Source of the DNA: a bacterium | Lineage (GTDB): Bacteria > UBP18 > UBA7526 | Reading direction: 5' to 3' | Assembly: GCA_030619985.1 (NCBI GenBank) | Contig: JAUXAI010000051.1 | Span: forward strand, 1 to 8,727 | DNA length: 8,727 nucleotides | Part shown: positions 5,050-5,366 of the stretch, piece after piece | Layout of the letters: each line of letters begins with the position of its first letter | How positions within the stretch are numbered: the first letter of the stretch is position 1 | Position numbers and translations under genes: made by a program | Notes under the pieces: model-generated | What the model saw: only the letters and a program-made list of their open reading frames with translations | Told to the model about the DNA's origin: nothing | Databases searched by the model: none

Positions 5050-5137
5050 TCTGATTACACAGATTTTTAAAGACGATTACACAGATGTTCTAAACAGGTT
5101 TTATCGGTGTAATCTTCTTATAATCGGTGTAATCAGA
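5050..5137. repeat. 88-bp imperfect palindrome built from GATTACAC repeats
   Basis: Two direct copies of GATTACACAGAT (5053-5064, 5075-5086) face two copies of ATCGGTGTAATC (5103-5114, 5123-5134). The outer arms pair over 15 positions with one mismatch (5050-5064 with 5123-5137), the inner arms over 12 with one mismatch, leaving a 16-nt loop. In RNA from the leftward promoter this would form a long hairpin in the 5' leader, ending 12 nt before the kinase ATG at 5037. Similar short repeats are common between genes in some candidate-phylum genomes. It may be a dispersed repeat, an mRNA structural element, or both. Confidence 0.8.
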
Positions 5138-5147
5138 GACCTCTTTT

Positions 5148-5176
5148 AGTATACTATAATATCTCGAAAAAGGCAA
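5148..5176 (-). promoter_or_regulatory. Sigma70-like promoter for the kinase-radical SAM-uvrA operon
   Basis: Read on the minus strand: -35 TTGCCT (5176-5171), a 17-nt spacer, and -10 TATACT (5153-5148). This matches 4 and 5 of 6 consensus bases at ideal spacing. Transcription would start near 5141, giving a leader of about 100 nt that contains the GATTACAC palindrome. The -35 box lies 3 nt outside the left arm of the inverted-repeat element. The prediction is from sequence only. Confidence 0.55.
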
Positions 5177-5179
5177 CTT

Positions 5180-5337
5180 GCCCCGTTAGAGAAAGGTCGT
5201 CCTTGGACGACCGTGCTCTCTTACTTTATTATGAGGGCGCGCATTCGCTTGCCCCCTCTACTAAGAAAGCCCGAATAACAAGGTTCTTGCCGCTTTGCGG
5301 CAAGGCTTTCGTATTGTAGCATTATCTCTAACGGGGC
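5180..5337. repeat. 158-bp element: 13-bp perfect terminal inverted repeat enclosing three hairpins
   Basis: The ends are GCCCCGTTAGAGA (5180-5192) and its exact reverse complement (5325-5337). Inside are three hairpins. Hairpin A is GGTCGTC-CTTG-GACGACC (5195-5212, a CUUG tetraloop if transcribed). Hairpin B is GAGGGC-GCG-CATT-CGC with closing GCC/CCTC (5233-5258). Hairpin C is CTTGCCGC-TTT-GCGGCAAG (5286-5304) set inside GAAAGC/GCTTTC (5265-5270 with 5305-5310). There is no open frame of note and no clear target-site duplication. The whole can fold as a multibranched structure with a closing stem. Candidate explanations are a MITE-like non-autonomous insertion, a dispersed palindromic repeat, or a structured RNA. 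It occupies the divergent spacer between two promoters. Confidence 0.75.
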
Positions 5338-5366
5338 TTGCTATTCTTCATTTTACATGGTATGAT
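5338..5366 (+). promoter_or_regulatory. Sigma70-like promoter for the barrel gene
   Basis: The -35 is TTGCTA (5338-5343), followed by a 17-nt spacer and -10 TATGAT (5361-5366), matching 4 and 5 of 6 consensus bases. The start would fall near 5373, leaving a leader of only about 16 nt, enough for the ribosome-binding site. The -35 box begins directly after the right arm of the inverted-repeat element (5325-5337). Confidence 0.55.

Follow-up and report, generated by a model that had tools for sequence, protein, structure and literature searches.

The hairpin cluster at positions 5180-5337 of the window (the whole analysed stretch of 8,727 nt) is, with a probability of roughly 0.85, composed of two mobile palindromic elements: an outer element A and, nested within it, an element B that is unrelated to A. 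The mobility of both elements is strongly supported, and members of both families occur in each of the six genomes by which one small bacterial phylum is represented here, all of them drafts of 53-93% completeness. The general kind of repeat to which A and B belong, MITE-like or REP-like, is already known; new are the rule that the target of A follows YNNR, a minimal form of 28 nt and the link to GIY-YIG genes. The features are located as follows:

5148-5176, minus strand: flanking promoter-like site TTGCCT-17-TATACT, which predates the insertion (flank joining, relatives)
5177-5180, no strand: left copy of the 4-bp target duplication CTTG (sequence; exact 4-bp duplications here in 29 of 72 A elements)
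5181-5336, plus strand: outer element A with terminal inverted repeats CCCCGTTAGAGA / TCTCTAACGGGG, split by B
5195-5212, plus strand: hairpin inside A, GGTCGTCCTTGGACGACC, with CUUG loop, found also in A copies without B
5229-5232, plus strand: TTAT adjoining the B insertion (before B in 23 of 24 aligned copies)
5233-5317, plus strand: nested element B, 85 nt, with three covarying helices (covariance model, copies in six of six genomes)
5233-5261, minus strand: GTAG-tagged imperfect palindrome in B (tag in 21 of 24 copies)
5337-5340, no strand: right copy of the CTTG target duplication (sequence; same duplication count as for the left copy)
5338-5366, plus strand: flanking promoter-like site TTGCTA-17-TATGAT, which predates the insertion (flank joining, relatives)

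Composition of the hairpin cluster

An earlier note on this DNA had described a 13-bp terminal repeat that encloses three hairpins, one of them with a CUUG loop, and these structures are indeed present. Positions 5180-5192 and 5325-5337 form a perfect 13-bp inverted repeat, of which 0.04 pairs were expected by chance in the window, and the three hairpins of the 158-nt cluster lie at 5195-5212 (CUUG loop), 5233-5257 and 5286-5304. The RNA fold of the cluster reached -74.5 kcal/mol (z = -7.6), which was equalled by none of 200 shuffles. Because the terminal bases of the repeat, G at 5180 and C at 5337, fall into the CTTG target duplication, element A proper comprises 5181-5336. A search for tRNA and tmRNA genes returned none, and a further A arm at 639-651 of the window has no partner arm.

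When the window's own genome was searched with 5165-5350, partial matches were obtained that fell into two separate blocks, the outer parts and 5224-5315. In genomes of the same genus or family, solitary copies of 5224-5315 are found as well as tandem arrays with a period of 84 nt, at up to 96% identity, and the outer arms recur in other places as an inverted-repeat element without the B insert. Removal of B (5233-5317) from A leaves 52 + 19 = 71 nt, and three A copies that lack B but share its type of internal A hairpin (G000:C74, G003:C25 and G002:C2), each of 71 nt, align end to end with the A of the window. In a genome of the same genus, another A holds a different palindromic insert (L144). 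The internal structure of the cluster belongs mostly to the nested B, and the inverted-repeat element proposed in the earlier note was correctly recognised as an insertion, but it is not the single unit for which it had been taken.

Element A and its short relatives

The A set consisted of 72 distinct elements of 46-439 nt from the six genomes of the phylum, a few of which were nested within others. The A of the window ends in inverted repeats of 13 bp, CCCCGTTAGAGAT, and is flanked by the target duplication CTTG (5177-5180/5337-5340). Exact 4-bp flanking duplications at the CCCC...GGGG boundary were observed for 29 of the 72 elements, against 4.3 expected from cross-paired flanks, and only 0-3 exact duplications were obtained with boundaries shifted by -4 to +7. 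Mini-elements of 28-30 nt (D; CCCCGTWGATA..TATCWACGGGG), whose outer bases are as in A, were present in every one of the six phylum genomes and absent from 35 other genomes, and 12 of 16 were flanked by exact duplications. All 41 duplications of A and D conform to YNNR, as do 68 of the 72 left and 69 of the 72 right flanks of A, even without an exact copy. The compact A copies (n = 16) fold into a three-way junction in which both sides have changed in 11 of 27 pairs, and 98.4% of the cells are paired, compared to 36-49% when slid.

A has the terminal inverted repeats, the target duplication and the multicopy, non-coding character that are typical of MITEs. Prokaryotic MITEs such as RUP, Correia/NEMIS and MITEAba12 are short, non-coding and present in many copies with terminal inverted repeats and a target duplication (PMC2229807, PMC10969869), and A is like them in size, non-coding nature, repeats, duplication and copy number. 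In contrast to them, the terminal repeat of A, CCCCGTTAGA, lacks the TA ends with which bacterial MITEs usually terminate, its 4-bp target follows YNNR, versions of only 28-30 nt are still flanked by duplications, it contains a covarying three-way junction, and its candidate partner is a GIY-YIG gene and not an IS transposase. Rickettsia palindromic elements (105-146 bp) likewise form long stem-loops and are confined to one bacterial lineage (PMC2229807); their likeness to A and B is one of description, and A differs from them by its YNNR duplication and possible partner gene.

Element B

An alignment of 24 copies of B yielded a common structure of three helices with double changes in 14 of 23 pairs and 94% of the cells paired, and 0 of 500 shuffles reached its covariation score; 46-55% of the cells were paired in the slid control, which is somewhat flattering because the structure was partly drawn from the same sequences. 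The double changes extend across all three helices and are hard to explain otherwise. The covariance model matched the window at 5228-5317 with 102.8 bits (E 3e-22) and also detected B in each of the six phylum genomes. Further copies and covariation among them, for which the earlier note had proposed to search, therefore exist for both families, as 72 A elements, B copies in six of six genomes and double changes in the helices of A as well as B.

TTAT precedes B in 23 of the 24 copies, and the right end of B is mostly TTATTAT (GTATTGT in the window copy). The adjoining TTAT is at the same time the right end of B itself, and insertion without duplication is therefore indistinguishable from a duplication of TTAT. 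The GTAG tag at the palindrome, found in 21 of 24 copies, is on the opposite strand, where the plus strand reads CTAC at about 5258-5261. Across 84,980 species genomes, the B pattern was concentrated in this lineage, mostly in MAGs labelled only 'bacterium' (CSMAG_2684, CSMAG_2709, HyVt-354, KR13_S3.mb.88), with scattered single matches elsewhere. There was none in viral contigs, and the search for autonomous copies, in which a gene would separate the two halves of B, returned only solo half-elements.

Non-autonomous elements derived from IS200/IS605 have hairpin ends and no inverted terminal repeats, insert at a fixed tetranucleotide and stack in tandem. B similarly has hairpin ends, the fixed tetranucleotide TTAT at its insertion side, no inverted terminal repeats and tandem stacking; the likeness lies in these traits, and no TnpA was found in the six phylum genomes. 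GTAG-tagged REPs and BIMEs are tagged imperfect palindromes that form tandem clusters (PMC3733652). B shares with these RAYT-associated repeats the tandem clustering and the tag beside an imperfect palindrome, whose stem covaries, whereas it exceeds the 20-40 nt of a REP unit with its length of about 85 nt and has a further long-range stem that covaries, solo palindromes also existing, and no RAYT/Y1 was found in the six genomes.

A third palindromic family (L005, L134, L124, L136, L146 and others) has AACAAGGTTCT-hairpin-GGCTTTCTTATTT in common with B, is often arranged in tandem and carries another 5' hairpin, GAGACAACTTGCTTGGCTC or GAGCGAAGCGA. One degenerate copy of B (L172, G000:C42:10242-10317) is contained in a reading frame whose product resembles a HEPN-domain protein. 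The right flanks of B copies from two species (L166, G000:C72, and L175/L141, G002:C30) are similar, which probably reflects one old shared insertion.

Promoters and the orthologous spacer

As stated in the earlier note, promoter-like -35/-10 pairs at 17-nt spacing are present on both flanks (TTGCCT/TATACT on the minus and TTGCTA/TATGAT on the plus strand, each agreeing at 9 of 12 positions); 4 promoter-like sites were counted against 1.1 expected. The same note had considered that insertion of the element could have created both of them. When the intergenic flanks were joined across one CTTG, TTGCTA-17-TATGAT and TTGCCT-17-TATACT were both intact, and in the orthologous spacer of three relatives the divergent promoters persist with different elements at the same CTTG. 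The arrangement is CTTG-A(B)-CTTG in the window, ACTTG-D-CTTG in G002, GCTTG-D-CTTG with a D of another subtype in G003, and CTTG-D-CTTG-A-CTTG, with an A of opposite orientation, in G001; all four have conserved -10 boxes. One site has thus been taken by different elements in different species, and both divergent promoters are older than the insertion of A. Positions 5050-5137 of the window contain two crossed inverted repeats of the GATTACACAGATT / AATCGGTGTAATC type that are absent from the orthologous spacers of G001-G003 and represent another inserted palindromic repeat beside A.

A mobile unit that made both promoters would agree with the -35 boxes abutting the edges of the element, but it is refuted by the promoters that remain whole after flank joining and that occur in three relatives, and we give it virtually no chance. 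The earlier note also offered the multibranch fold as an RNA, and a functional structured RNA or attenuator of 158 nt in the spacer would fit the very stable fold (z -7.6) and the helices that covary in both the A and the B family. Such covariation is, however, equally expected of DNA hairpins that are read by an enzyme, the A and B parts are found separately elsewhere as two separately moving DNA families, the spacers of relatives lack such a structure, and the search against Rfam gave no match above the gathering score, which together make an RNA function very unlikely.

Candidate mobilisers

The cluster is best explained by two successive insertions, whereas the enzymes and the chemistry by which A and B moved are inferred. 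A MITE-like A of 71 nt, with 13-bp repeats starting with CCCCG, very probably entered the YNNR site CTTG between two existing divergent promoters, whereby CTTG was duplicated. Subsequently, the unrelated palindromic B of 85 nt inserted into A directly after TTAT.

Decayed genes for GIY-YIG nucleases were detected in three A-ended elements, G003:C27 (E 1e-13), G003:C80 (E 5e-6) and G004:C123 (E 3e-4), one of which is crossed by an assembly gap. GIY-YIG remains recur among the A-ended elements of more than 200 nt, and those that were read contained no further recognisable gene; in the six drafts, no transposase was identified in A-ended partner elements, nor was an intact GIY-YIG gene detected between A ends. 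Elsewhere in the phylum, small GIY-YIG genes are situated close to or between palindromic ends of other kinds, including an intact orthologous pair (G000:C46:32999-33181, G002:C30) that, as recognised by eye, is flanked by CCCCCGCCCCCATTT-type repeats and a TCAA duplication, and these CCCCCGCCCCCATTT-flanked genes are unrelated to those in A. Directly next to the intact GIY-YIG genes of the phylum, a strict 12-mer search gave no inverted repeats, and a looser search gave some. Some small GIY-YIG genes of other phyla are located between 28-29-bp inverted repeats; in L273 and L299 (G008, G029), these repeats are of a common intergenic GTCATTCCCGCGAAAGCGGGAATCC type. At L183 and L193 (G000:C23, G000:C77), a small GIY-YIG gene is found near an apparent tRNA gene, and a portion of the tRNA-like sequence recurs, possibly reflecting insertion into a tRNA gene. 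In the literature, as far as it was covered, GIY-YIG proteins were not tied to bacterial palindromic elements.

Within its family, in which the longer elements contain a gene for a small GIY-YIG nuclease, A would accordingly be non-autonomous, and GIY-YIG proteins are the best candidates for mobilising A and D, a link that rests on three decayed copies in which the nuclease could be a passenger. The nuclease, or a partner enzyme, would cut YNNR with a 4-nt stagger, the hairpin-forming A would be joined into the staggered break, and fill-in would give rise to the 4-bp duplication; we regard the GIY-YIG step as tentative and rather doubtful. Alternatively, A and D could be ordinary MITEs that are moved with a 4-bp duplication by a classical DDE transposase, with the GIY-YIG genes as passengers, to which we assign somewhat less than even odds. 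Terminal inverted repeats with a 4-bp duplication are the usual signature of DDE enzymes, and a transposase gene may have been missed in incomplete drafts, but the only genes recognised in the A-ended elements of more than 200 nt that were read are GIY-YIG remains, and unrelated GIY-YIG genes of the same and of other phyla also lie between inverted repeats. DDE transposases of the IS1380 type produce 4-bp duplications, and this one DDE family was rejected as a source for A because DDE_Tnp_1_4 (PF13701) was absent from six of six genomes.

For B, the folded single strand may be recognised via its hairpins and inserted beside TTAT, as in the IS200/IS605 and REP systems, by an enzyme that the searches of these genomes did not recover. 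We consider it about evenly balanced whether B belongs to the REP/IS200-IS605 type and owes its movement to a Y1 (RAYT-like) transposase that has since been lost or was missed. The GTAG-tagged imperfect palindrome in 21 of 24 copies, the subterminal hairpins, the insertion at a fixed tetranucleotide and the tandem arrays argue for such an origin; the length of 85 nt and the second long-range covarying stem, unlike single REPs, argue against it, as does the result that Y1_Tnp (PF01797; RAYT/TnpA) was found in none of the six incomplete drafts at E<=1. A Y1/RAYT enzyme as present-day mobiliser was rejected, as none was found in the six draft genomes of the phylum.

Biological meaning

How tiny bacterial palindromic repeats move is an old question, and most of them lack a known transposase. 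Here, a single lineage provides boundaries, a 4-bp YNNR rule, a minimum of 28-30 nt, nesting and a candidate enzyme, and because boundaries, target rule and candidate can be read from one lineage, the mobiliser becomes testable in vitro. The spacer studied here has repeatedly been taken by different elements while its promoters stayed intact. The larger A family with its GIY-YIG remains hints at an undescribed way of jumping. We consider it rather unlikely that small GIY-YIG nucleases mobilise a whole class of inverted-repeat elements by cutting YNNR and inserting hairpin DNA with a 4-bp duplication, thereby spawning MITE-like derivatives down to 28 nt and allowing the replacement of elements at one address. 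If true, this would be a route of transposition that dispenses with known transposases of the DDE, HUH or recombinase kind, and it might also operate in other phyla that have GIY-YIG genes between long inverted repeats.
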